Assembly (NCBI GenBank): GCA_016868815.1
Contig: VGFQ01000009.1
Location: forward strand, 21,811-85,810
DNA length: 64,000 nucleotides
Direction of reading: 5' to 3'
Source: Bacteroidota bacterium
Lineage (GTDB): Bacteria > Bacteroidota > Bacteroidia > Chitinophagales > Chitinophagaceae
Part shown: in pieces, positions 21,419-38,914 of the stretch
How positions within the stretch are numbered: position 1 is the first letter of the stretch
Layout of the letters: the number at the start of each line of letters is the position of its first letter
Translations under genes and position numbers: made by a program
The notes under the pieces: generated by a model
Told to the model about the DNA's origin: nothing
The model's database searches: none
The model's input: the letters and a program-made list of their open reading frames with translations, nothing else

Positions 21419-22330
21419 CTAATTTCTACCCATCCGCATCATCATCATGCCGCGCTCGTTTTGCATCTCAGACATCGGTTTGATGTCAAAGCCCTTTGGG
21501 ATCTCGAAGGTTTTCGGGTCGATGCTTGCATCTAGCTGCACCTTGGTCACCATCGTATGGGTTTTGAAGCCATTCCCCCGCTCCACCTGGAATTCCATGG
21601 GAAAACCCGGCAACTCGTTCAGACCTGGGATGCCGATCAAGGACATCATCCCACTACGACCGCCACCGCCAAAGCCGCTCTCCCCGCCGGGGAAGCCCAA
21701 GCCCTCAGGCATTTTGAAGTCCGGAGAATACCAGATGATGCTCTCATTTGGCTGCCCACGCTGCCCTCGGGTCCGTATGATGGCTTTGCGGCATGTCAGT
21801 CCCGCAATCTTCTTGGTTTCCTCTGTGTATTCTATCTCTGGCCGGGCAGGTGCACCAAAGCTGAAGCCAGCCCGCTGCAGGCTATCTCTCCGGGCATCCC
21901 TGCCCTCATTCCTCCGGGCATTGCGCATAGAATCCATCCGGGCCCGCATGACCTGCTCATCTTCGGGCGTGGAAAAAAATCCCGTCTTTCGCCCCATGGT
22001 TTCTGTAAGATTTGTCGTTCGTCCAGACGTTTTGTCGGTGATCACGATGTTATTGCCGAAGTCTGTATTGCTCTCCATCTTACTCCTCATTCCACTGACA
22101 TACAGCGTACTACTGGCCTCCATGCCACCACCCATCATCATCTGTCCGCCACCTTCCGGGCCGTTGGTATTATTGCCGAAATTCTCTGGAAATGTCACTT
22201 CCGTCTTGAAGCGAATGATGGCCTTTTCCACCATCCGGGGCTGGGCGATCGCTGTAGAGGTGCTCAGGCTGAGCAGAGAGATCATAACAGTTCTCATAAG
22301 AAAAGGCTTGCTGTGTGAAATGTTGTGCAT
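21419..22330 (-). CDS. GLPGLI-like secreted protein
   Basis: Signal peptide; KKIAGLTCRKAIIRTRG...IWYSPDF...IPGLNELPGFPMEFQVERG pattern typical of GLPGLI-type proteins. Confidence 0.6.
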   Translation of the reverse strand: MHNISHSKPFLMRTVMISLLSLSTSTAIAQPRMVEKAIIRFKTEVTFPENFGNNTNGPEGGGQMMMGGGMEASSTLYVSGMRSKMESNTDFGNNIVITDKTSGRTTNLTETMGRKTGFFSTPEDEQVMRARMDSMRNARRNEGRDARRDSLQRAGFSFGAPARPEIEYTEETKKIAGLTCRKAIIRTRGQRGQPNESIIWYSPDFKMPEGLGFPGGESGFGGGGRSGMMSLIGIPGLNELPGFPMEFQVERGNGFKTHTMVTKVQLDASIDPKTFEIPKGFDIKPMSEMQNERGMMMMRMGRN

Positions 22331-25341: not shown

Positions 25342-28300
25342 ATGCTGAACCGTATCATTCGTTTCTCCATTCGGAACAAATTGATCGTGGCCCTTTTCAT
25401 CCTGGCCTGGATCTCATGGGGTGCGTTTGAATTCACGCGCCTCCCGATGGATGCCTTGCCAGACATCACCTCCAACCAGGTACAGGCCATCACGGTTACG
25501 CCTACACTGGCATCGCCGGAGGTAGAGCAGTTGATAACTTTCCCCATCGAACAGGCATGTTCGAACATCCCGGGTATCACAGAAATCCGTTCCATCTCCC
25601 GCTTTGGCCTGTCTGTCGTCACCATCGTCTTCCGCGATGAGACGGACATCTACTGGGCCCGTCAGCAAGTAGGGGAGCGGCTGGCGCAAATCCGCCAAGA
25701 GATACCCCCTGAGGCTGGCTCCCCAGCGCTAGCGCCTGCTACTACCGGACTTGGCGAGGTATACCAATACATCCTCCGCCCTGCTGCCGGCTATGAAGGA
25801 AAGTATACCATCGAAGACCTCCGCACCATACAAGACTGGATCGTTCGACGGCAACTCCTGGGTACCCCGGGCGTAGCCGACGTCAGCAGCTTTGGAGGAA
25901 AGCTGCGGCAATATGAAGTGGCCCTCCGCCCGGAACGGTTGCAAAGCCTAGGCATCTCCATGTCCGATGTGTACAGGGCTCTGGAACAAAACAACCAGAA
26001 TGCCGGCGGCTCCTACATCGAGCAGGGACCCTCCCTGCTCTACATCCGTGCCGAAGGTCAAGCCCGCAACATGGAGGACATTCGCCGCATCCCTGTGCGC
26101 CAGACTGCCTCCGGCATTCCTATCTTCATCCGAGACATTGCTGAAGTCCGCATCGGGCATGCCGTCCGCTATGGTGCCTTGACGTATGAAGACAAGGGAG
26201 AAGTCGCCGGCGCCGTCGTGCTCATGCTCAAAGGGGAGAATGCCGTACAGGTCATCGCCGGCATCCAGGCCCGGATAGAGCGCATCCGCCAGACACTTCC
26301 GGAAGGTGTAGAGCTTGTCACGTTTCTGGACAGGACGAAGATGGTCGGCAGGGCTGTCTCCACGGTTTCCCAAAACCTGCTGGAAGGAGCGCTCATCGTT
26401 GTGTTCGTCCTTGTCTTCTTTCTGGGCAACCTCCGTGCCGGCCTCCTCGTCGCTTCCGTTATTCCCCTGTCCATGCTATTTTCCATCACCCTGATGAATC
26501 TCACGGGCGTATCTGGTAACCTCATGAGTCTGGGCGCGATCGATTTTGGCCTGATCGTCGACGGCGCAGTCATCATCGTAGAAGCTATCCTGCATCGCCT
26601 CCACCTCGAAAAGATGAAGGGGGGTATCCGCCAACCAACCGATACGATGGATGCCATCGTCTCCTCTACCAGCTCGCGGATGATGAATGCGGCCGTCTTT
26701 GGACAAATCATCATCCTCGTCGTCTATCTACCCATCCTCAGCCTTTCCGGGATAGAAGGGAAGATGTTCCGGCCTATGGCCCAGACCGTTGCCTTCGCCC
26801 TCTTAGGTGCCTTGATCCTCTCGCTCACCTATGTGCCGATGATGTCTTCTTGGCTGCTCTCGCATTCGGCCGGTCATTCGCTGAAGTTTTCCGAGCGTTT
26901 TATGCAGTGGTTGGGTCATGCATATGCCAAGACCCTGGCAGCCACCCTTCGTCGGCCAAAGTTCCTGCTGGGGGTTAGCCTCTTCACCCTCTGCCTGTCT
27001 TTCGGACTCGCCACTCGGCTGGGAGGAGAGTTCATACCCGAACTGGAGGAGGGCGACTTCGCCATCGATGCTCGGATAATCACTGGCAGTTCCCTCTCAG
27101 AGTCGGTAAGGGTGGCGACAGCGGCCGCCACCATCCTGCGGGGCTTCCCAGAAGTCGAGCGCATCGTGACACGCATCGGAGCCAGCGAGATCCCCACAGA
27201 TCCGATGCCCATTGAAATGACCGATATTATTGTCAGCCTGCGCGACAAGAAAACGTGGACTACTTCGGAGACCTACGATGCCTTGGCTGACACGATGAGC
27301 CGGGCCCTCCATGCCATCCCGGGCCTGACCGCCGGCTTTCAATACCCTGTGCAGATGCGCTTTAATGAACTCACCGCAGGCGCCCGGCAAGATGTCGTTT
27401 GCAAAATCTTTGGAGAAGACCTTGACACGCTCGCCTCCCTGGCACAAATGCTTGCTGCTTCCGCCCTGAAGTTAGAGGGCGTCCGGGACCTGTACGTAGA
27501 AGCGGTGACAGGCCTACCACAGGTCGTCATTCGCTACCGCAGGGATCAGATGTCCATGTTCGGGGTCTCCATCAAAGAAGTCAACCGCACCGTTCGAGCC
27601 GCCTTTGCCGGGGAGACGGTCGGGAAAATCTACGAGAACGAGCGACGCTACGACCTTGTTGTCCGACTCGATGCCTCCGCCCGGAAAGGTATTGAAGACA
27701 TCCGCCGAATGCTGGTAACCACCATCTCCGGCCGACAGGTAGCCCTCTATCAGCTTGCAGACATTTTCACGGAAGAAGGTCCGAATCAGATCCAGCGGGA
27801 AGATGCCAAACGACGCATCATCGTGGCTTTCAATACCCGCGGGCGAGATGTACAAAGCATCGTAGAAGACCTGCAAAGACGAGTAGCAGTAGATGTCAAA
27901 CTCCCTGCAGGCTACTACGTTCAATACGGGGGGCAGTTTGAAAACCTCATGGAAGCACGGCAGCGGCTGGTGATCGCTGTGCCCGTGGCATTGCTGCTCA
28001 TCTTCGTCATGCTCTACTTTGCCTTCCATTCCATACAGTATGGGCTGCTCATCTTTTCCGCCATCCCACTGTCAGCCATCGGTGGTATCCTCTCGCTTTG
28101 GCTGCGCGACATGCCCTTTAGCATCTCCGCTGGCGTGGGCTTTATAGCCCTGTTTGGTGTGGCGGTAATCAATGGTATCGTCTTGCTGTCAGAGTTCAAG
28201 AGACTTATGATGGAAGTTGGGCTGTCTGCTGAGGAAGCCGTCGCAGAAGGTACCCAGAACAGACTTCGTCCGGTTCTCATGACAGCAGCGGTGGCCTCCC

Positions 28301-29706
28301 TCGGCTTTCTCCCCATGGCCCTCAGTCAAAGTGCCGGGACTGAAGTGCAACGTCCACTCGCCACCGTCGTCATAGGAGGCTTGGTCACCGCAACCCTTTT
28401 GACACTCTTCGTCTTGCCCGCACTCTTTTTGTACGTGCAACGTCGGTCTGCTGGCTTCCGCGGCCCTCTCGCCACCGCCAGTCTCCTCGCCCTATGCCTA
28501 AGCCCGGGACTGGCCGCACAGCCATTACAAGGTATACAGTCCTCTACCACTGAACTGCTGCAGATCGCGGAAAGGAGAAGTCTGTCGGTCGCCAACACCC
28601 GCAGCATGGATGCGTATTGGCAGGCACTTGCTTCCAAAGTGTTCGATCCGCCCCGCACGCAGCTAGGCCTCGAGTATGGTAACCTCAACAGCTTCAACTT
28701 GGATACCCGATTCTTTACCAGTCAATCCTTCCAGCCACCGGTTGTCTATGCCCGAAACCGCGACTACTTTCAGGCAGGCCTGCTCTCCAACCAGGCCCTC
28801 ACCCGGCTGCGATTGCGGGATGTGAGATATCAAGTGAGGAGCCTCTGTGCCGCGTTAGCAAGCCTGCAGGAACGGGATCTCTTGCTGCGACGGCTGGATA
28901 CTGTCTACAATCGTTCCGCCCGGGCGGCAGCCCTCCGGTTGCAGACGGGCGAGACAGGTCGCTTGGCAAAGGCATCCGCTGAGGCATATGCAGGACATGT
29001 AAGACTGCAACGGCGACAGCTGCTAGAAGACTTGGTCCAGTTGCAGCAAAGGCTGGCTACCGTGCTGGATACCGCCGTTGCCTGGCTGCCATTGCCGGAA
29101 GAGCCTTTACCTGAAACGAAAGCTACATCTCCCGCCCTCCAGATCACGTCTCATCCACAGCTCGACCTTCTGCAGTCGCAGCAAGATGTCAAAAAGGCAC
29201 AAACGGAGATCGAAAAGAACAAGCTGGCCCCGGAATTCAACCTGGGATATAGCAATCTTTCCATCATCGGTTGGCAGTCGCCCGACGGATTGACACAGAA
29301 ATTCTACGGCGCAACCGACCGATTCGGACAGATTCAATTCTCCATGGGCCTGCCCATCTTCACAGGTGCAGCCCGCGCTCGAATCCGGGCAGGCAACGTC
29401 GAGGCAGCCATCGCCGCACAAGAAAGAGAGCGGACACGGAAAGACCTGTCTGGCCGCCTCGCAGAAGCCATGGCCAATCTGCGCAAGCATTCCGCCTCAC
29501 TGGAATGGTTTCAGCAGACGGGACTTGAAGAGGCGCAAGTGTTGGAATCAGACGCAGCTGCTGGCCTAGCCGTCGGGAGCCTCTCGTATGCCGAATGGGC
29601 TGTCCTGATGGACCAGGCCGTCCGCATCCGACTTGAATGGCTGCAGGCAAGGGATGAAGTCCGAAAGGCGAATGCTGAGATCGAATACATCACCGGAAAA
29701 GACTGA
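25342..29706 (+). CDS. cusA: CusA/CzcA heavy-metal RND transporter fused to a C-terminal TolC-like outer-membrane efflux domain
   Basis: RND: MLNRIIRFSIRNKLIVALFILAWISWGAFEFTRLPMDALPDITSNQVQAITVTPTLASPEVEQLITFPIE...; from about residue 1060 TolC-like coiled-coil sequence to residue 1454. Confidence 0.92.
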   Translation: MLNRIIRFSIRNKLIVALFILAWISWGAFEFTRLPMDALPDITSNQVQAITVTPTLASPEVEQLITFPIEQACSNIPGITEIRSISRFGLSVVTIVFRDETDIYWARQQVGERLAQIRQEIPPEAGSPALAPATTGLGEVYQYILRPAAGYEGKYTIEDLRTIQDWIVRRQLLGTPGVADVSSFGGKLRQYEVALRPERLQSLGISMSDVYRALEQNNQNAGGSYIEQGPSLLYIRAEGQARNMEDIRRIPVRQTASGIPIFIRDIAEVRIGHAVRYGALTYEDKGEVAGAVVLMLKGENAVQVIAGIQARIERIRQTLPEGVELVTFLDRTKMVGRAVSTVSQNLLEGALIVVFVLVFFLGNLRAGLLVASVIPLSMLFSITLMNLTGVSGNLMSLGAIDFGLIVDGAVIIVEAILHRLHLEKMKGGIRQPTDTMDAIVSSTSSRMMNAAVFGQIIILVVYLPILSLSGIEGKMFRPMAQTVAFALLGALILSLTYVPMMSSWLLSHSAGHSLKFSERFMQWLGHAYAKTLAATLRRPKFLLGVSLFTLCLSFGLATRLGGEFIPELEEGDFAIDARIITGSSLSESVRVATAAATILRGFPEVERIVTRIGASEIPTDPMPIEMTDIIVSLRDKKTWTTSETYDALADTMSRALHAIPGLTAGFQYPVQMRFNELTAGARQDVVCKIFGEDLDTLASLAQMLAASALKLEGVRDLYVEAVTGLPQVVIRYRRDQMSMFGVSIKEVNRTVRAAFAGETVGKIYENERRYDLVVRLDASARKGIEDIRRMLVTTISGRQVALYQLADIFTEEGPNQIQREDAKRRIIVAFNTRGRDVQSIVEDLQRRVAVDVKLPAGYYVQYGGQFENLMEARQRLVIAVPVALLLIFVMLYFAFHSIQYGLLIFSAIPLSAIGGILSLWLRDMPFSISAGVGFIALFGVAVINGIVLLSEFKRLMMEVGLSAEEAVAEGTQNRLRPVLMTAAVASLGFLPMALSQSAGTEVQRPLATVVIGGLVTATLLTLFVLPALFLYVQRRSAGFRGPLATASLLALCLSPGLAAQPLQGIQSSTTELLQIAERRSLSVANTRSMDAYWQALASKVFDPPRTQLGLEYGNLNSFNLDTRFFTSQSFQPPVVYARNRDYFQAGLLSNQALTRLRLRDVRYQVRSLCAALASLQERDLLLRRLDTVYNRSARAAALRLQTGETGRLAKASAEAYAGHVRLQRRQLLEDLVQLQQRLATVLDTAVAWLPLPEEPLPETKATSPALQITSHPQLDLLQSQQDVKKAQTEIEKNKLAPEFNLGYSNLSIIGWQSPDGLTQKFYGATDRFGQIQFSMGLPIFTGAARARIRAGNVEAAIAAQERERTRKDLSGRLAEAMANLRKHSASLEWFQQTGLEEAQVLESDAAAGLAVGSLSYAEWAVLMDQAVRIRLEWLQARDEVRKANAEIEYITGKD

Positions 29707-29711
29707 CACGC

Positions 29712-30851
29712 ATGAAACATCCTCTCTGTACGTTTTTATTGTTGTGGGCGATGGCTGCTTGCCGGCAAGTGGCAGAAACATCGGCCGAACAAAAGGCATC
29801 CGAAACATTCACTCGGGAAGTCAACCTCACCCCCCAGCAAAGGGCTAAGGCAGCAATCGTGACCGGCCCGCTGGAACAAAAGAAGATCCATAGCTCCATC
29901 ACTGTCAACGGAGTAGTGGATGTCCCACCTCAGAACATCATCTCAGTGAGCTTCCCGCTTGGCGGATACCTTCGGCATACTAAGTTGATACCCGGCATGC
30001 CCATTCGGAAAGGAGAGGTCATCGCAGAGATAGAAGACCCCGCCATCGTGCAGTTGCAGCAGGACTATCTGGTGACTGCCGCCCGGCTGAGCTATCTAGA
30101 AAAAGAACTGAATCGGCAGAAATCCCTGAATGCTGATAAGGTCAGCGCCGACAAGGTCCTAGAACAGGTATCCTCCGAACACGCAAGCCAACGCGCCATA
30201 CTCAGTGCACTGTCCGAGAAACTGCGTATGATCGGCCTGCAACCGGAAATACTTCGGTCAGACAGCATCACCCGAATGGTTTGCCTACGCTCACCCATCC
30301 ATGGCTTTGTCTCTAAAGTCAATGTCAACATCGGCAAATATGTGCAACCGCAAGATGTGCTCTTCGAACTCATCAATCCAGACGATATTCACGCCGCACT
30401 CTCCATCTTTGAAAAGGATATTCCCCGTGTACAGGTCGGGCAGACCGTCAGCATCTCTTTCGTCGACGAGCCCGAGACTTCCTACGAAGGTGAAGTCATC
30501 CTGCTGAACCATCATGTGGACAACGACCGAGTCGCCCTCGCCCACTGCCATTTTCATTCCAAACCTGCCCGACTCCTACCGGGTATGTACCTCAATGCCC
30601 GCATCTACCTCCAGGCATCCGCCATTCCTTCACTGCCCGAACAAGCCATCGTCAGGTATCGCGACCAGGATTATGTGTTTGTTGAGGTTGACGCCCACCG
30701 CTTTTCCCTCCAACCCGTTCGTACCGGCATACATTCAGATGGACAGGTTGAAATACTTGATGCATCGCATGAATTGCATAAATATAAGATTGTGAAAATC
30801 AACGCTTATAGTTTATTGGGATCTATGATGAATAGGGCGGAAGGGCCTTGA
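29712..30851 (+). CDS. cusB: RND efflux periplasmic adaptor (CusB-like membrane fusion protein)
   Basis: N-terminal lipobox-like MAACRQ; TVNGVVDVPPQNIISVSFPLGGYLRHTKLIPGMPIRKGEVIAEIEDPAIVQLQQDYL; 5 nt after cusA. Confidence 0.88.
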   Translation: MKHPLCTFLLLWAMAACRQVAETSAEQKASETFTREVNLTPQQRAKAAIVTGPLEQKKIHSSITVNGVVDVPPQNIISVSFPLGGYLRHTKLIPGMPIRKGEVIAEIEDPAIVQLQQDYLVTAARLSYLEKELNRQKSLNADKVSADKVLEQVSSEHASQRAILSALSEKLRMIGLQPEILRSDSITRMVCLRSPIHGFVSKVNVNIGKYVQPQDVLFELINPDDIHAALSIFEKDIPRVQVGQTVSISFVDEPETSYEGEVILLNHHVDNDRVALAHCHFHSKPARLLPGMYLNARIYLQASAIPSLPEQAIVRYRDQDYVFVEVDAHRFSLQPVRTGIHSDGQVEILDASHELHKYKIVKINAYSLLGSMMNRAEGP

Positions 30852-30855
30852 ATGC

Positions 30856-32049
30856 CTAGGACTCAAAATACGCCACACTGCCGCCGACCCATTCTTTGTC
30901 GGTGTTGTACCGGACACCGATCATTTTGCCTTTGCTGAGGCGCGCTAAGTTAGTGGCGGCCATTGGCCTGGTCTCGCCCTGCTTCCAGAGGTACATGATC
31001 CTGATCTCCACCTTAGCAGGATCCTGGGGGGTCAAGATGGCATCCGCATATCTGACTTTGCGCTGCAGGATCCAGTGCGCCGGATCGGAGACGCCTTCGA
31101 TGTCGGAAGGCTGCAGGTCGATCACCACCCCCTGTCCGGCAAAGGAAAATAGCGGCTTCAGCACGAAATCAGACATTGACCCCGGTAATGCTTTTACCTG
31201 GTCCAGAAACCAGGTCTCCGGGATGTAGGGGTGTCTTAAGAAAGGTAAGGTGTATTTACTAACCCGATAGAACCAGTCGGGATGCGGCACCCAGGTTACA
31301 TCCCAGCCGTCCCGGATGTCAATGATCTTCCCTAAGCGGTCTCGAACTGCATGCAGCTCATCAAAAATGACCCGGTTGTAGATGCGTCGGATGCGGATGC
31401 GGCGACCGTCGTGTTCGTAGTAGAGATACCGCCCTTCCGGTTTCAGCTGCGTGATGCATACCGGTTGGATGCCCAATAGATTGCGCGTGCAGAGGAAGTC
31501 GACTCGGGTCTTTTGACGTTCTGGCTGTATCTCCAGTAAGACGACCTCTTCTGGGGCACAATCCCCTACAATGACTTCCTGCAACAAGGAAGCATACCGT
31601 TGCCGATCTAGTCCGCTGAAAAAGTTTGAGAAGCCTTCCGGTATGGGGAAATGCTTTTCTAGCAACGCTGGATACATTGCTTGGAAGCCTAGCAGGCTGG
31701 GGAAGCCTTGCATTTCGATGAGCTGCGGCGAGAGCTGTCCGGCTGCATCCTCACAGATGCCAAAATCGAAAGTCAGAATCTGAGGCTGGCCGATGTCGCC
31801 GGGCACCCGGTCATACACGGGTACGGACGCGGCGGTGTAGTCAAGGAACCCTGGCTCGAGGATCTGGTCGATGATATACTCGCAGGTATCCAGGATGGCC
31901 ACCCCCAAAGCCTTGGGGACGAAGACCGGCGTCTCGGCGATGCGGAATTCAATGGCCCCAGGGTGTTGGGCCTGCAGCTCTTCTAGGAAATGGGCATACG
32001 CCTCCCTGGTGTACCGATCGTTGAATGCTTGTCGGATGCCTGGTATCAT
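30856..32049 (-). CDS. putative ATP-grasp-like amidoligase-cluster protein of unknown function
   Basis: FVLKPLFSFAGQGVVIDLQPSDIEGVSDPAHWILQRKVRYADAILTPQDPAKVEIRIMYLW resembles ATP-grasp K/E/R segments; co-directional with the GATase and ligase genes. Confidence 0.55.
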   Translation of the reverse strand: MIPGIRQAFNDRYTREAYAHFLEELQAQHPGAIEFRIAETPVFVPKALGVAILDTCEYIIDQILEPGFLDYTAASVPVYDRVPGDIGQPQILTFDFGICEDAAGQLSPQLIEMQGFPSLLGFQAMYPALLEKHFPIPEGFSNFFSGLDRQRYASLLQEVIVGDCAPEEVVLLEIQPERQKTRVDFLCTRNLLGIQPVCITQLKPEGRYLYYEHDGRRIRIRRIYNRVIFDELHAVRDRLGKIIDIRDGWDVTWVPHPDWFYRVSKYTLPFLRHPYIPETWFLDQVKALPGSMSDFVLKPLFSFAGQGVVIDLQPSDIEGVSDPAHWILQRKVRYADAILTPQDPAKVEIRIMYLWKQGETRPMAATNLARLSKGKMIGVRYNTDKEWVGGSVAYFES

Positions 32050-32111
32050 GTATCAACTGCAAGATGCAGGGTGTGACAGATTTTTCTTTCTCTTTTCGAT
32101 AGGAGGATGGG

Positions 32112-32957
32112 TCAGTTCCGTTTGGTGCCCGTGATTTCCTCCGCCGACTGTCGGAGAAAGTTAGGTAATACATGGGCGTAGGTCCATCGTATTTTATCCG
32201 GATCATCTAGCTGTTCCACCATCGATCGCCATTTCTCATAGCCGTGGTTCTCGATGACGGTCTTCTTTTTCTCATCCGTCCGTAGGTACATGCTCATGCC
32301 TTCTGCATCCGCCTCCGGATGAAACTGCGTGCCAATCATATGTGCTGAAAAGCGCATGGCCATGATGGCTCGTTCCAGGGGGATGTGCGGGCGTTCTTTC
32401 TCTATGCACAGGATAGATCCACCCATGTCGCGCAGTCGGTTATGGTGTGGCTGTATTACTTGATAGTCGCGGCTGTCAACGGCGTAGAACGGGTCAGATA
32501 GCTCACCAAAGACTGGCTCTGCACGTCCATCTTGGATCAGGTGCATCGGGAAGACCCCGAAGGAAGTTGACTTACGCTTCGACACCTCACCTATTCCATA
32601 ATATCTGCAGGCCAGCTGGAAGGAATGGCAGATGAAAAATACCTTTTTCTTTCGGGGGTTTGCCGGGTCAGCATTCCAGCGCTCCAGGCAGTGAAGCCAA
32701 TGGAAGTAACGGTGTTCCCAATCGCTACCCTTGCTTTCGAGCGGACTTCCAGGACCGCCGCTGGAGAGGTAAATGTCGAAGGAGCTGTCTGGCACGGATT
32801 GTGTCTGTCGCACTTCAAACTCCTCGCATGCCACGTCTGCCTCCCAATGATCGCGAAAGGCTTGCACGAGGTTGCGCAGGCATCGCATGCCCTGGTTTGG
32901 GACGCCTGCATAGAGGTCGAGGATGGCAATGCGCAGGCTGTTCCCTTCTGTCTGCAT
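32112..32957 (-). CDS. class I glutamine amidotransferase-like protein
   Basis: RIAILDLYAGVPNQGMRCLRNL; FDIYLSSGGPGSP; VFFICHSFQLA nucleophile; GTQFHPEADAEGM His/Glu. Confidence 0.82.
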   Translation of the reverse strand: MQTEGNSLRIAILDLYAGVPNQGMRCLRNLVQAFRDHWEADVACEEFEVRQTQSVPDSSFDIYLSSGGPGSPLESKGSDWEHRYFHWLHCLERWNADPANPRKKKVFFICHSFQLACRYYGIGEVSKRKSTSFGVFPMHLIQDGRAEPVFGELSDPFYAVDSRDYQVIQPHHNRLRDMGGSILCIEKERPHIPLERAIMAMRFSAHMIGTQFHPEADAEGMSMYLRTDEKKKTVIENHGYEKWRSMVEQLDDPDKIRWTYAHVLPNFLRQSAEEITGTKRN

Positions 32958-33005
32958 TAGTGTGTAAAAATGTAAAAATAAACCTAGTGTCTTTTATGTA
33001 GGTAC

Positions 33006-34118
33006 TTACAAGGCCGACAGGAAGCTGCCCTGGATCAGGTCTGTCACCTGTACCAGGTTCCCCGTCTCCCGGAATACCTTCAGCTGCCGGTCAGCACCCG
33101 TACCTCTGTCCATCATACGAGGAATGATCTCCAAGCCGTGGCGGCAGCCCAGGTCGTCTGCCACATCATCCACAAAGTCCAGGAGTTCCTGTATGAGTAC
33201 CCGGGTAGGCTTCTCTTCTTCAATGCCGAAGTCGATCAGCTTGCCGTCGATGCCGTAGCGGGAGGCTCTCCATTTGTTCTCCATCACCAGCGCTCGGGGA
33301 TATATCATAAAGTTCAGGTTATTAGACCGGAGCTTGTAGAGCTTGGCACAGATGCCTTGGAATAGTGCTGCGATGGCAATCGACTCGTCTACCGTCATAG
33401 GTACATCACAGATGCGGAATTCTACAGTGCCGTAGAAGGGGTGCACCCGAAGGTCCCACCAGATTTTCTTGGCGTTGTCAATACAATGGGTCTTGATCAA
33501 TAGGTTAACATAATTCTCATAGGCGCTGTAGCTGTCGAAATAGTCGGGGATACCGGTCCGCGGAAACTTATCGAAAACCTTGGTGCGAAAAGATTTGAAG
33601 CCGGTAGTCCTGCCTTCCCAGAAAGGCGAGTTCGTACTTAAAGCAAAGACATGCGGGAGGAAGTAACGGGCGCTGTTGGCGATGTGGATAGCCATCTCTC
33701 TGGAGGGCATGCCCACATGCACGTGCAGTCCGAAGATGAGGTTACTGCGCGCGGCATCCTGCAACTCGTCGACAATCTCGCGGTAACGGACATGGTCTGT
33801 GATGAGCTGCTTTTCCCAAAGTGAGAAAGGATGAGTGCCCGCTGCCCCGATCGAAAGACCAATTCCCTGGGCGATCTGCGAGATGGTCTCCCGCAGCGAT
33901 GTCACATCCCTCCTGGCCTCGTCGATGTCCTGGCAGATGTCCGTGCCCACTTCCACAACGGCCTGATGCATCTCCGCCTTGACCTTGTCGCGCAGGATTT
34001 TCTGACCCTCCAGTACGATGCGTTGCTCATGGCTGCGGAGCTCGCGGCTTTGAGGATCGATGACCATGTACTCTTCTTCCACCCCAAGTGTGAAATGCTT
34101 GTATTTAATATTTCCCAT
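33006..34118 (-). CDS. carboxylate-amine ligase, GCS2/YbdK-like (glutamate-cysteine ligase family 2)
   Basis: FTLGVEEEYMVIDPQSRELRSHEQRIV; LHVHVGMPSREMAIHIANSARYFLPHVFALSTNSPFWEGRTTGFKSFRT; GTVEFRICDVPMTVDE. Confidence 0.92.
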   Translation of the reverse strand: MGNIKYKHFTLGVEEEYMVIDPQSRELRSHEQRIVLEGQKILRDKVKAEMHQAVVEVGTDICQDIDEARRDVTSLRETISQIAQGIGLSIGAAGTHPFSLWEKQLITDHVRYREIVDELQDAARSNLIFGLHVHVGMPSREMAIHIANSARYFLPHVFALSTNSPFWEGRTTGFKSFRTKVFDKFPRTGIPDYFDSYSAYENYVNLLIKTHCIDNAKKIWWDLRVHPFYGTVEFRICDVPMTVDESIAIAALFQGICAKLYKLRSNNLNFMIYPRALVMENKWRASRYGIDGKLIDFGIEEEKPTRVLIQELLDFVDDVADDLGCRHGLEIIPRMMDRGTGADRQLKVFRETGNLVQVTDLIQGSFLSAL

Positions 34119-34144
34119 GTGTGCGGTTGACTGGCAGGCAATGA

Positions 34145-35098
34145 CTATCTCAGGGGTAGGCCGGCTATGCTGGAACGTAAATACTCACCCCAGGAAAGAT
34201 TGTCGCATCCAGGCCGGTGTTTCTGTGCCCGTTCAATGGCATAGCCGGCCATTGTTTCCACGACCCATTCAAAATTTTCTTCTCCCACGCTCCGCAGGTC
34301 AGCATCCGGGGCTGGGTTGCAGAAGTCGATGGCATATGGCACCCCATCGCGGACGGCCAGTTCCACCGTATTGAAGTCATACCCCAGGAATTGATTGATG
34401 CGCAAGACCATGCCTTGCATGGTGGCGAAGAGCTCTGCAGAGGGCTTGTGCTCCGCAGCATATCTCAGGTGATGCGGATTGCGGGGCTCGTAAGGCATGA
34501 TGCGAACATGCTTATGGCCTATGCAGTAGCAGCGGTAGTATTCTTCGAAGACGATCTCTTCCTGCAGTAACATCACCAGCTGCCCGGTCTCGGCATGCTT
34601 CTCGAAGAACTCATCCATCGAGGCCAGGCGATATACATTTTTCCAGCCTCCTCCTGCAAAAGGTTTCATATAGGCGGGAAATCCGACATACTCGAAAATG
34701 CCCTTCCAGTTGAGAGGATAGGCTAAGTTGCTGAAAGACTCGTCAGACGTGTCGTCCGGTAAATCCCTCGAGGGGAGGATAACGGTCTTGGGGACTGGCA
34801 CTCCGATCTTTGTCGCTAGGGCATTGTTGAAGAACTTTTCGTCGGCACTCCACCAGAAAGGATTGTTGATTACAGCGGTGCCGCTGATGGCAGCATTCTT
34901 CAGAAAAGCCCGGTAAAAAGGCACATCCTGCGAGATACGGTCCACGATGACGGCATAGCCGCTGTCAGCCCCCTGCATGACTTTTTCTATCCGAACGGGT
35001 TCGGCCTGGATTCCCTCAACCGCCTTTGATTGAATTCGCTGTACAAATGCTTCCGGGAAGGAACGCTCTTTACCGTGTAGAATGCCTATTTTCTTCAT
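34145..35098 (-). CDS. ATP-grasp ligase (D-Ala-D-Ala ligase/RimK-like)
   Basis: MKKIGILHGKERSFPEAFVQRI; GFPAYMKPFAGGGWKNVYRL; VMLLQEEIVFEEYYRCYCIGHKHVRIMPYEP; FNTVELAVRDGVPYAIDFCNPAPDAD. Confidence 0.85.
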   Translation of the reverse strand: MKKIGILHGKERSFPEAFVQRIQSKAVEGIQAEPVRIEKVMQGADSGYAVIVDRISQDVPFYRAFLKNAAISGTAVINNPFWWSADEKFFNNALATKIGVPVPKTVILPSRDLPDDTSDESFSNLAYPLNWKGIFEYVGFPAYMKPFAGGGWKNVYRLASMDEFFEKHAETGQLVMLLQEEIVFEEYYRCYCIGHKHVRIMPYEPRNPHHLRYAAEHKPSAELFATMQGMVLRINQFLGYDFNTVELAVRDGVPYAIDFCNPAPDADLRSVGEENFEWVVETMAGYAIERAQKHRPGCDNLSWGEYLRSSIAGLPLR

Positions 35099-35246
35099 GG
35101 GCGTCCGTATGTGAGATGGTACGGGTTGGCCTTGCAACCCATTTTCCACTCCAAAAGTATTGGCAATTGCCGAGACGATAAAAAATGCAACAACGGGGAA
35201 GCTAAAGGCGCATGCTGTTTTATCCTACCTTAACACTTCCATACCG

Positions 35247-36068
35247 ATGCGCGCGCCAACTGATAAGGCCTTGATCTCTCCGGCAGGACGGGAGACCTGC
35301 CAGCTATATTCTGAATTCCTGCAAAGGGATGTCACCCTCGACCTATACCAGCCACAGGCTGGAAGCCCGCCCTCGATCCTTTCGCTGTTGTTGGTGAACG
35401 ATGGCCAGGACCTACCCGCCATGAGATTCGGACATCTCCTGCAGCAGCTTCACTGTGCGCAGAAGATCCGCCCGCTGCTCTGCGTAGGTATTCATGCAGG
35501 ACCCGACCGTCGCCATGAATATGGTACCGCCGGCATCCCTGACTACCTCGGCAGGGGGGCCAAGGCCGACTTATATACCTGCTTCATCCTGAAGGAGCTC
35601 CTGCCCTGGCTGCGGCATCGCCTGGGTGCCATCCATTTCAAGGAGAAGTCGTTCTGCGGTTTTTCCCTGGGCGGGCTGATGGCCTTCGATATCGCCTGGA
35701 ACCATCCAGACGAATTTCGGCATGTGGGCGTCTTCAGCGGCTCCTTCTGGTGGAGGTCTCGGGCACTGGACGATGGCTATGACGAAACCCGACACCGGAT
35801 TATGCATGCCCGCATTCGAGCCGGCAAGGCTGCCCCCTGGCTGCGCTTTTTCTTACAGGCCGGGATGTTAGACGAGACTGCTGACAGGAATAAGAATGGA
35901 GTGATCGACTCCGTAGATGATACAAGAGACATACTGCTGGAACTACAGGGACATGGCTATCAACTGGGGAAAGAGCTCTGCCATCTGGAATTGCCGGATG
36001 GCACCCATGATGTCAAGACATGGGGCCGGGTAATGCCTGTCTTTCTGCAATGGGCCTTCAAAAAATAA
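35247..36068 (+). CDS. alpha/beta-hydrolase esterase (enterochelin-esterase/esterase-D-like)
   Basis: Ser nucleophile elbow CGFSLGGLMAF; GVFSGSFWWRSRA; LELPDGTHDVKTWG catalytic His context; ATG at 35247 preferred. Confidence 0.82.
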   Translation: MRAPTDKALISPAGRETCQLYSEFLQRDVTLDLYQPQAGSPPSILSLLLVNDGQDLPAMRFGHLLQQLHCAQKIRPLLCVGIHAGPDRRHEYGTAGIPDYLGRGAKADLYTCFILKELLPWLRHRLGAIHFKEKSFCGFSLGGLMAFDIAWNHPDEFRHVGVFSGSFWWRSRALDDGYDETRHRIMHARIRAGKAAPWLRFFLQAGMLDETADRNKNGVIDSVDDTRDILLELQGHGYQLGKELCHLELPDGTHDVKTWGRVMPVFLQWAFKK

Positions 36069-36120: not shown

Positions 36121-36630
36121 TTATTCCATCCGAATACTCACTTCGGTATTTTCCCAGCGTAGGATCACCTTGCCATTCTCTACTGCATACACAAGATTTT
36201 CCACCAGCTGACTGGTTTTTTTCGCGGCTACTTTCACCCGTAAGGCGTCCTCTTCCTGCTTATATCGGTAGGAGCCCCACTGATTCCAAGTTTTATTGAA
36301 TACAACGGTCCATTCGCCTTCTCCGGGAATAGCAAAAAAGCCATATTTGCCTTTGGGAAGCGACTGTCCTTCTACTTTTACATCACTGTCCACTTCAAAG
36401 ATGGTGGCTTCGTTGGCGCCGGCCCTCCAGATTTTGCCATACGGCAAAAGGTCGCCAAATATCTTCCGTCCTTTCACGGCAGGGGAGCTATAGTCGATGG
36501 TAATGGTGGCTTTACCTGCTTTGCCAGTGGCTTTGGCAGCTGGGCTGGGCCGGCTCTGCTTGTCTTGGGCGCAGGACGGTAGGCTTGTGGCCAGTAGGGC
36601 CGTCGCCAGGAAAAAATGGATTGTTTTCAT
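36121..36630 (-). CDS. DUF2911 domain-containing lipoprotein
   Basis: MKTIHFFLATALLATSLPSCAQ; ATITIDYSSPAVKGRKIFGDLLPYGKIWRAGANEATIFEVDSDVKVEGQSLPKGKYGFFAIP is diagnostic of DUF2911. Confidence 0.9.
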   Translation of the reverse strand: MKTIHFFLATALLATSLPSCAQDKQSRPSPAAKATGKAGKATITIDYSSPAVKGRKIFGDLLPYGKIWRAGANEATIFEVDSDVKVEGQSLPKGKYGFFAIPGEGEWTVVFNKTWNQWGSYRYKQEEDALRVKVAAKKTSQLVENLVYAVENGKVILRWENTEVSIRME

Positions 36631-36726
36631 GTGATGTGATTTTTCTGTTATTAAAACGCACCCACAGGGAATTGATTGCGTAGGGGGCACTTCGTTCGGT
36701 TGCTTCGACCAACGAATATCTGCAAT

Positions 36727-37452
36727 CTATGCCTGATTGGCAAGGAGTCTGCGATACATCTGGACCGTATTTTGTAAACTATAGTACAATGCGTCGCTGA
36801 TGAGGGCATGGCCGATGCTGACCTCATCCAGCCAGGGGATCTGCTGAGACAGATAACCCAGATTGACCAGGCTCAGGTCATGTCCGGCGTTCAGACCCAG
36901 TCCCAGTCGCCTTGCCTCTGTAGCCGCCTCTACAAAGGGGCGTATGGCCGATGCCCGGTCTGCGGCATAACCAGCTGCATAGGGTTCTGTATACAGTTCG
37001 ATCCGATCCGTACCGACCTCTGCCGCCCCGGCAACCATGGCAGGGTCTGGATCACAAAAGATGGATGTCCGGATCCCGGCAGTCCGGAACACAGACACCA
37101 TCTCACGGAGGTATTCGCAGTGTACAATCGTATTCCAGCCATGGTCAGACGTCAGCTGACCCTCTGCATCGGGCACCAGTGTCACCTGCTCGGGAACGAC
37201 TTCCAGCACCAGTGCTACAAACCTAGGTTCGCGGCAGTTGCCTTCTATATTGAGCTCCTGTGTCACCACCTTCCTCAGGGCTCTCACATCATCATAGCGT
37301 ATATGCCGCTCGTCGGGCCTGGGGTGTACGGTGATGCCATCGGCCCCGAATCGTTGGATGTCGATGGCCGTCTGCACGACGTCCGGATTGTTGCCACCGC
37401 GGCTGTTGCGGAGGGTGGCAATCTTGTTGATGTTGACAGAAAGCCTCGTCAT
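36727..37452 (-). CDS. pdxJ: pyridoxine 5'-phosphate synthase
   Basis: [70 protein letters not shown]. Confidence 0.97.
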
Positions 37453-37520
37453 CTGTTCTCAAATAATCTTTACAACGGTATGCGCTCTTGCCTTGTTTTT
37501 ATCCAGTATGTCAGCTAATG

Positions 37521-37553
37521 AAAAAAGCCCCTGCAATACGCCAGGGCTTTTTT
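37521..37553 (-). terminator. intrinsic terminator downstream of ahcY
   Basis: aaaaaagcccctgcaatacgccagggctttttt: GC stem plus A/T tracts, just past the ahcY stop. Confidence 0.7.
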
Positions 37554-37576
37554 GATTCACATCACGACAGTACGCA

Positions 37577-38914
37577 TTAGTAGCGATAGAGTTCTGGCTT
37601 GAAGGGCCCATCTTTCTTCACGCCTAGGTATTCCTCTTGCTCGGCGGTCAGTTCTTCTAATTCTACACCGATCTTGGAGAGGTGCAGCCTGGCTACTTTC
37701 TCGTCGAGATGCTTTGGCAACACATAGACCTTGTTCTCGTAGTTGGTGTGGTTCTTCCACAGTTCTATCTGAGCAAGGGTCTGGTTGGTGAAGGAGTTAC
37801 TCATCACGAAACTGGGGTGCCCCGTGGCGCAGCCCAGGTTGACGAGGCGGCCTTCAGCAAGCAGTATGATGTCCTTGCCTTCTATGTTGTAGATGTCGAC
37901 CTGAGGCTTGATGGTATCCTGCGTGTGGCCGTAGTGCGTATTCAGCCAGGCCACATCTATTTCGATATCGAAATGCCCGATGTTGCAGACGATGGCCTTA
38001 TCTTTCATGGCACGGAAATGGCGCTCTGTAATCAGGTCTCGACATCCGGAGGCCGTCACTACAATATCTGCCTCTTTCACGGCATCCACCATCTTCTTGA
38101 CTTCATAGCCGTCCATGGCGGCCTGCAGGGCGCAGATGGGGTCGATCTCTGTGACGATCACCCGGCACCCCGCGCCGGAGAGCGAGGCGGCCGAGCCCTT
38201 GCCCACATCTCCATAGCCACCTACCACGGCCACCTTTCCAGCCAGCATCACATCTGTAGCCCGGCGGATGGCATCTACCAGCGACTCTTTACAACCATAC
38301 TTGTTGTCGAACTTGGACTTGGTGACCGAGTCGTTCACGTTGATGGCAGGCATCGGCAAGGTGCCCTTGGCAACCCGCTCATACAGACGGTGTACCCCGG
38401 TCGTCGTCTCTTCAGAGATGCCTTTTACATGCTGTACTAACTCTGGATACTTGTCCAGCACGACGTTTGTGAGATCTCCTCCATCGTCTAAAATCATATT
38501 CAACGGACGGTCGGCACCACTAAAGAACAGCGTCTGCTCAATGCACCAGTCGGCCTCTTCGATACTCTGTCCCTTCCAGGCAAACACGCCGATACCTGCC
38601 GCAGCTATAGCGGCGGCGGCATGATCCTGCGTGGAAAAAATGTTACAAGAGCTCCATTTGACTTCGGCACCCAGGGCAACCAGCGTCTCAATCAGCACGG
38701 CAGTCTGAATGGTCATATGCAGACAGCCCGCAATGCGAGCACCCTTTAAAGGCTGTTGGGGACCATACTCTGCACGGAGTGCCATCAGCCCCGGCATCTC
38801 GGCCTCGGCAAGTCGTATCTCCTTGCGTCCCCATTCCGCCAGGCTGATATCCTTGACTTTGTACGGTAGTGAAAAATCGATCTGTGAAATTGTTAAGCTG
38901 GACATGCTTGTCAT
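37577..38914 (-). CDS. ahcY: adenosylhomocysteinase
   Basis: [84 protein letters not shown]. Confidence 0.98.

Follow-up and report, generated by a model that had tools for sequence, protein, structure and literature searches.

What would bacteria make with three different ligases and two hydrolases packed into one locus? The question is raised by five genes at positions 30856-36068 of a 64,000-nucleotide stretch of DNA (the window; positions 21,811 to 85,810 of contig VGFQ01000009.1, GenBank assembly GCA_016868815.1) from a Bacteroidota bacterium of the family Chitinophagaceae. From the folds and families of the encoded proteins, their intact signature residues, their co-occurrence, their operon order and the exchange of parts between lineages, we infer that the genes probably serve one shared pathway: a module, independent of non-ribosomal peptide synthetases and of the ribosome, in which three ATP-dependent ligases build a small peptide-like amide, with a glutamine amidotransferase-fold protein (GATase) and an esterase as hydrolases. 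An earlier note, made from the letters of the window, had recognised two ATP-grasp-like proteins together with a GCS2 ligase and a class I GATase, and opposite them a divergent esterase; profile matches and folds agree with this composition, and the five open reading frames (ORFs) are all intact at the coordinates it gave:

30856-32049, minus strand: ATPg2, predicted circularly permuted ATP-grasp amide ligase of the glutathione-synthetase/glutathionylspermidine-synthetase fold, 397 amino acids (AlphaFold2 model and Foldseek)
32112-32957, minus strand: class I glutamine amidotransferase-fold hydrolase (GATase), 281 amino acids (PF00117 and catalytic triad)
33006-34118, minus strand: YbdK-type GCS2 carboxylate-amine ligase, 370 amino acids (PF04107 and NF010039, both above their cut-offs)
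34145-35098, minus strand: RimK/LysX/Ddl-like canonical ATP-grasp ligase, 317 amino acids from its ATG (Foldseek and conserved residues)
35099-35246: intergenic region shared by the divergent RimK-like and esterase genes, 148 bp if the esterase starts at its ATG
35247-36068, plus strand: PF00756 alpha/beta-hydrolase esterase (74.9 bits against a cut-off of 22)

Do these genes belong together? Co-occurrence was counted in 248 Bacteroidota genomes, each at least 90% complete, leaving out matches that were fragmentary or below about 46% identity. ATPg2 is carried by 73 genomes, the RimK-like ligase by 83, GCS2 of the NF010039 branch by 73 and the GATase by 59. ATPg2 and the RimK-like ligase occur together in 70 genomes, ATPg2 and GCS2 in 68, and the RimK-like ligase is present in 58/59 genomes with the GATase; within Bacteroidota, the NF010039 branch is nearly tied to the module (70/73 genomes). 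All four genes are found in 41 genomes, all but the GATase in 24, the RimK-like ligase and GATase in 8, these two with GCS2 in 5, all but GCS2 in 4, and other combinations in 4. Fisher p values for the gene pairs range from 1e-19 to 1e-48, with kinship between the genomes ignored.

The arrangement recurs as well. Over about 99 fetched loci, the order that recurs is esterase, RimK-like ligase, GCS2, GATase and permuted ligase; adjacent pairs are RimK-like and GCS2 (37), GATase and ATPg2 (37), GCS2 and GATase (26) and Est4947 and RimK-like (21), with 15 divergent esterase/RimK-like pairs among these loci. Most genomes of the window's own genus carry ATPg2, usually adjoining the GATase. Moreover, three complete single-contig genomes keep both the permuted ligase and the RimK-like gene at a distance of 0.7-3.2 Mb from each other; shared operon inheritance alone is insufficient to explain the retention of ligases so separated. 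Co-conservation in relatives, which the earlier note had proposed as a check, is thus strong in both the genomes and the fetched loci. That the genes are chance neighbours from separate pathways is hardly credible: the flanking genes (RND efflux, DUF2911, PdxJ and S-adenosylhomocysteine hydrolase) are indeed shared mainly with close relatives, but the co-occurrence and operon order are repeated over many families and a second phylum.

Parts of the module are also swapped like for like: a CP_ATPgrasp_2 protein for ATPg2, an M29-family peptidase for the GATase, and one esterase family for another. In lineages with the RimK-like ligase and no ATPg2 match, a CP_ATPgrasp_2-type protein sits between the RimK-like gene and the GATase in 7/7 fetched loci.

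What kind of enzyme is ATPg2? Profile searches with the window protein gave no match in Pfam or NCBIfam, and hence no sequence-level membership of the eukaryotic-type glutathione synthetases. The GSP_synth profile (PF03738) does not match it, one orthologue reaching 16 bits against a cut-off of 29.3; the CP_ATPgrasp_1 and CP_ATPgrasp_2 models (PF04174, PF14403) do not match it either, and a PDB sequence search with an ATPg2 profile returned only YgiC (E 0.11) and an unrelated transporter. The AlphaFold2 model has a predicted local distance difference test score (pLDDT) of 91.5 and a predicted template-modelling score of 0.91. Against the PDB, Foldseek matched it to 1m0w, 8fbz, 3n6x, YgiC 7uk8, GspS 2io7 and Cp1B 9cjn, covering yeast and human glutathione synthetase, a GspS-like protein, YgiC, YjfC, Escherichia coli GspS and the fungal Cp1B (E 1e-12 to 1e-8, probability 1.00); 1m0w, a eukaryotic-type glutathione synthetase, gave E 1.5e-12 and a template-modelling score of 0.60. 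Identity in these structural alignments is just 13-16%. Because the model matches glutathione synthetase, GspS, YgiC/YjfC and Cp1B, ATPg2 is, by its predicted structure, a circularly permuted ATP-grasp ligase. This fold search, named in the earlier note as a check on its label 'ATP-grasp-like', found the ATP-grasp fold.

The residues of ATPg2 point the same way. D95, E112, Q114, K298, G305, G307, E348, R350 and R370 are invariant in 62 aligned sequences, and two motifs stand out:

31708-31716, minus strand: E112-x-Q114, predicted Mg2+-binding motif of ATPg2 (E in 62/62, Q in 62/62)
31129-31158, minus strand: K298-P-L-F-S-F-A-G-Q-G307, predicted ATP-binding lysine and glycine-rich loop of ATPg2 (K298, F303, G305 and G307 in 62/62)

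In alignments, the second motif pairs with KPIFSREGANV of YgiC. The metal motif (D95, E112-x-Q114) comes before both the ATP lysine and the glycine-rich loop; canonical ATP-grasp enzymes have the reverse order. In hhalign comparisons, the ATPg2 motifs pair over the full length with those of CP_ATPgrasp_2, ExQ falling opposite the ExN of CP_ATPgrasp_2 and the GspS family, and a canonical ATP-grasp profile fails to align; the probabilities are modest (33-36%), and the fold search carries more weight. ATPg2 shares with GspS, YgiC/YjfC (PF03738) and eukaryotic-type glutathione synthetase the permuted fold, the order of metal and ATP-lysine motifs and a long profile alignment; it differs from GspS and YgiC/YjfC in lacking a significant sequence-family match, in ExQ for ExN, and in having no fused amidase. 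A member of the CP_ATPgrasp_1/CP_ATPgrasp_2 families (PF04174, PF14403) fills its position in other lineages, but the ATPg2 motifs differ: an arginine two residues before the metal aspartate is found in 0/62 ATPg2 sequences versus 14/14 of CP_ATPgrasp_2, and is present in GspS, YgiC and YjfC. Instead of the RxD...ExN motif of GSP_synth, ATPg2 has xxD...ExQ in 62/62.

The second ATP-grasp enzyme is of another kind. The RimK-like protein, whose ORF stays open back to a GTG at 35149, matches TIGR00768 (RimK family alpha-L-glutamate ligase) weakly, at 24.4 bits, with an orthologue at 34 bits; both are below the subfamily cut-off of 143.4. Its AlphaFold2 model is of moderate confidence (pLDDT 73.6), and Foldseek matches it to LysX/ArgX, Ddl, RimK and the ATP-grasp ligases of ribosomally synthesised and post-translationally modified peptides (RiPPs), at E of about 1e-12 to 1e-10. 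It carries the marks of the ATP-grasp superfamily, namely the fold, the ATP lysine K145, GGG149-151 and the metal ligands D258 and N261; K145, G149-G151, Q179, R189, D258 and N261 are kept in 97% or more of 48 sequences. The two ATP-grasp enzymes of the earlier note are therefore both upheld, and they fall into different types, one canonical and RimK/LysX/Ddl-like, the other permuted and of the glutathione-synthetase/glutathionylspermidine-synthetase type. Since RimK, LysX/ArgX and RiPP ligases use protein or peptide carriers, the ligases might extend a protein or ribosomal peptide with amino acids that the hydrolases remove again. We consider this improbable: among ORFs of 60 amino acids or more, the fetched loci have no small conserved carrier or precursor between the genes, and GCS2 and glutathione-synthetase-type enzymes use small molecules in known cases. 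A plasmid search for the RimK-like protein found none. Distant paralogues of it (28-35% identity) occur in four Acidobacteriota genomes and two others; two fetched loci of such paralogues have no other module gene alongside.

The third ligase is the most readily classified. GCS2 matches PF04107 (1.8e-60, 205 bits against a cut-off of 21) and NF010039 of NCBIfam (515 bits against 371), and it is close to E. coli YbdK (structure 1r8g, 4.8e-53), a member of the same family; unlike YbdK, it sits in the PRK13515 branch (NF010039). Does the pair of GCS2 and a glutathione-synthetase fold mean that the product is a glutathione-like, low-molecular-weight thiol, as the earlier note had considered? Plant glutathione synthesis uses this very fold pair; here GCS2 would give a gamma-Glu-Cys-type product, the glutathione-synthetase-fold ligase would complete it, and the esterase would act like S-formylglutathione hydrolase. 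This is quite unlikely, however. BshC is the last enzyme of bacillithiol synthesis, and a homologue is present in 243/248 genomes, this one included, irrespective of the module, which weakens the proposal. A third ligase and a GATase are foreign to glutathione synthesis, one family has the module without GCS2, and ATPg2 has lost the arginine before the metal aspartate that its permuted relatives keep. As physiological correlates, neither BshC (243/248) nor COX1 (237/248) discriminates module carriers.

Does the GATase supply ammonia or hydrolyse? The protein matches PF00117 (29 bits against a cut-off of 22.8), and its catalytic C110, H213 and E215 are invariant in 47/47 orthologues. It may be a glutaminase whose ammonia goes to the permuted ligase, the two forming an amidotransferase-synthetase pair that makes a primary amide. 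The intact triad fits this, as does the adjacency of GATase and ATPg2 in 37 loci, including those where the RimK-like/GCS2 half lies elsewhere (for example L084/L085). We nevertheless regard it as rather unlikely, since 27 genomes have ATPg2 with no GATase match, and elsewhere the GATase adjoins a different permuted ligase (CP2). In addition, an M29-family peptidase (PF02073), from which no glutamine-derived ammonia is expected, occupies the GATase slot between GCS2 and ATPg2 in several lineages, seen at four Acidobacteriota loci and in two Bacteroidota genomes. Close orthologues of this peptidase (at least 60% identity) were found in three Bacteroidota genomes, and the GATase in none of them; a GATase search of the genome of one Acidobacteriota locus found none, which is consistent with the swap, although this search had no positive control. 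The peptidase in this slot therefore favours a hydrolytic role over ammonia supply, and speaks against a glutaminase feeding a partner synthase. That hydrolases of unrelated fold share one slot suggests trimming or turnover. Leucyl aminopeptidase (M17) genes adjoin the module in two other Bacteroidota lineages (L091:3417-4826, by Pfam; L098:1007-2419, by sequence).

The esterase is divergent from the four other genes. Its S169 (in GFSLGG) and H283 are conserved in 20 sequences. Residues ahead of the aligned core number 19 or fewer in 15/19 relatives (with mechanical ORF starts), 44 when counted from TTG 35160 and 15 from ATG 35247; because the N-terminal lengths of relatives fit the ATG and not the TTG, translation probably starts at 35247. 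One further element is conserved:

35883-35918, plus strand: EF-hand-like Ca2+-loop sequence DRNKNGVIDSVD within the esterase (DRNxNGxIDxx(D/E) in 20/20 aligned esterases)

Its conservation suggests a structural calcium site. The esterase, a PF00756 member, is distantly similar to enterochelin esterase, and the earlier note had thought of a siderophore with a releasing esterase. A siderophore or other secreted metabolite freed by a Fes-like enzyme is very improbable: at 38 bits, the esterase stays far below the enterochelin-esterase cut-off of 222 (PRK10439/NF007758), which leaves that proposal weakened, and no uptake receptor came to notice next to the cluster, where no systematic search was made. 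In many other loci, moreover, the slot is filled by a second, distinct esterase family in place of the PF00756 Fes-like one of the window.

How might the parts work together? GCS2 and ATP-grasp enzymes form amide bonds via acyl-phosphates. Each of the three ligases, whose folds are unrelated or permuted (GCS2/YbdK-type, RimK/LysX-type ATP-grasp and permuted glutathione-synthetase/GspS-type), would thus probably activate a carboxylate as an acyl-phosphate and then couple an amine. GCS2 would most likely form a gamma-glutamyl amide, and the RimK-like and permuted ligases would each add one building block. The presence of three different ligases therefore implies that the compound has as many as three ligated bonds, or else that there are alternative building blocks. 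The GATase and the divergent esterase would most likely act hydrolytically, trimming or recycling either the product or an intermediate; the GATase, like PuuD, would cleave a gamma-glutamyl amide or one similar to it. As a more specific and only tentative proposal, the product may be an undescribed small gamma-glutamyl or peptide-like metabolite or cofactor, widespread among Bacteroidota and Acidobacteriota; its final ligase would belong to a new family of permuted ATP-grasp enzymes whose metal site is ExQ, and the GATase-fold protein would be a peptidase-like hydrolase, not an ammonia donor.

Several observations weigh against the reading as one pathway. Shared ancestry inflates the co-occurrence. 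GCS2 is missing from the module in four genomes, all of one family, and 24 genomes carry GCS2 and the two ATP-grasp enzymes but no GATase; therefore, some parts are dispensable. Furthermore, given the lost arginine before the metal aspartate, the chemistry of ATPg2 may differ from that of its permuted relatives.

Is there precedent for such a set? The module is uncharacterised in the literature searched, where no paper describes this gene set; the 2009 survey by Iyer et al., which lay outside that coverage, reportedly describes systems of the same kind, with amidoligases of several folds beside peptidases and other hydrolases. In the Puu pathway, PuuA carries out gamma-glutamyl ligation, and PuuD, of the class I GATase fold, then hydrolyses. 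The logic of ligation and hydrolysis is alike, but PuuA belongs to a different ligase family than GCS2, and the GATase and GCS2 of the module are not always found in the same genome. A further parallel is the E-64 pathway, independent of non-ribosomal peptide synthetases, in which Cp1B is an ATP-grasp pseudodipeptide ligase (PMC12568646). There, too, successive amide ligases, Cp1B and Cp1D, give a pseudopeptide, and Cp1B matches ATPg2 structurally; that pathway is fungal, its second ligase is of the ANL type, and the portions of the paper covered here describe no GCS2, GATase or esterase set (PMC12568646). The cluster is akin to known multi-amidoligase clusters, as a variant.

The surroundings are as follows. 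The four minus-strand genes are separated by 62, 48 and 26 bp, and a convergent HlyD gene lies only 4 bp from the 3' end of the cluster. A promoter and terminator scan gave results close to shuffled expectation. On the plus strand, 25342-29706 is a single ORF of 1454 amino acids, an AcrB/CusA-type RND pump (PF00873, residues 5-1032) fused to an outer-membrane efflux protein domain (PF02321, residues 1268-1452), directly followed by a CusB/HlyD-like adaptor at 29712-30851; in relatives, ORFs of similar length adjoin the adaptor. On the other side, DUF2911, PdxJ and S-adenosylhomocysteine hydrolase genes (36121-38914, minus strand) stand in the same order beside the cluster in many close relatives, and rarely further away. 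Many relatives have a small ORF of about 104 amino acids 3' of the permuted ligase (e.g. L032:6530-6841), cupin-like on inspection of its sequence and not seen there in the window. Anti-phage defence was considered and dropped: the five cluster proteins matched no PADLOC model.

The module is widespread. Kept in about one third of the sampled Bacteroidota genomes, and sometimes scattered on the chromosome, the set behaves as a maintained pathway would, unlike a transient cluster for secondary metabolites. For two of the enzymes there is no specific family model. The identity of the product would give a function to a ligase family without a Pfam match, and would also reveal the in vivo role of the YbdK-type ligase, which is still poorly known.

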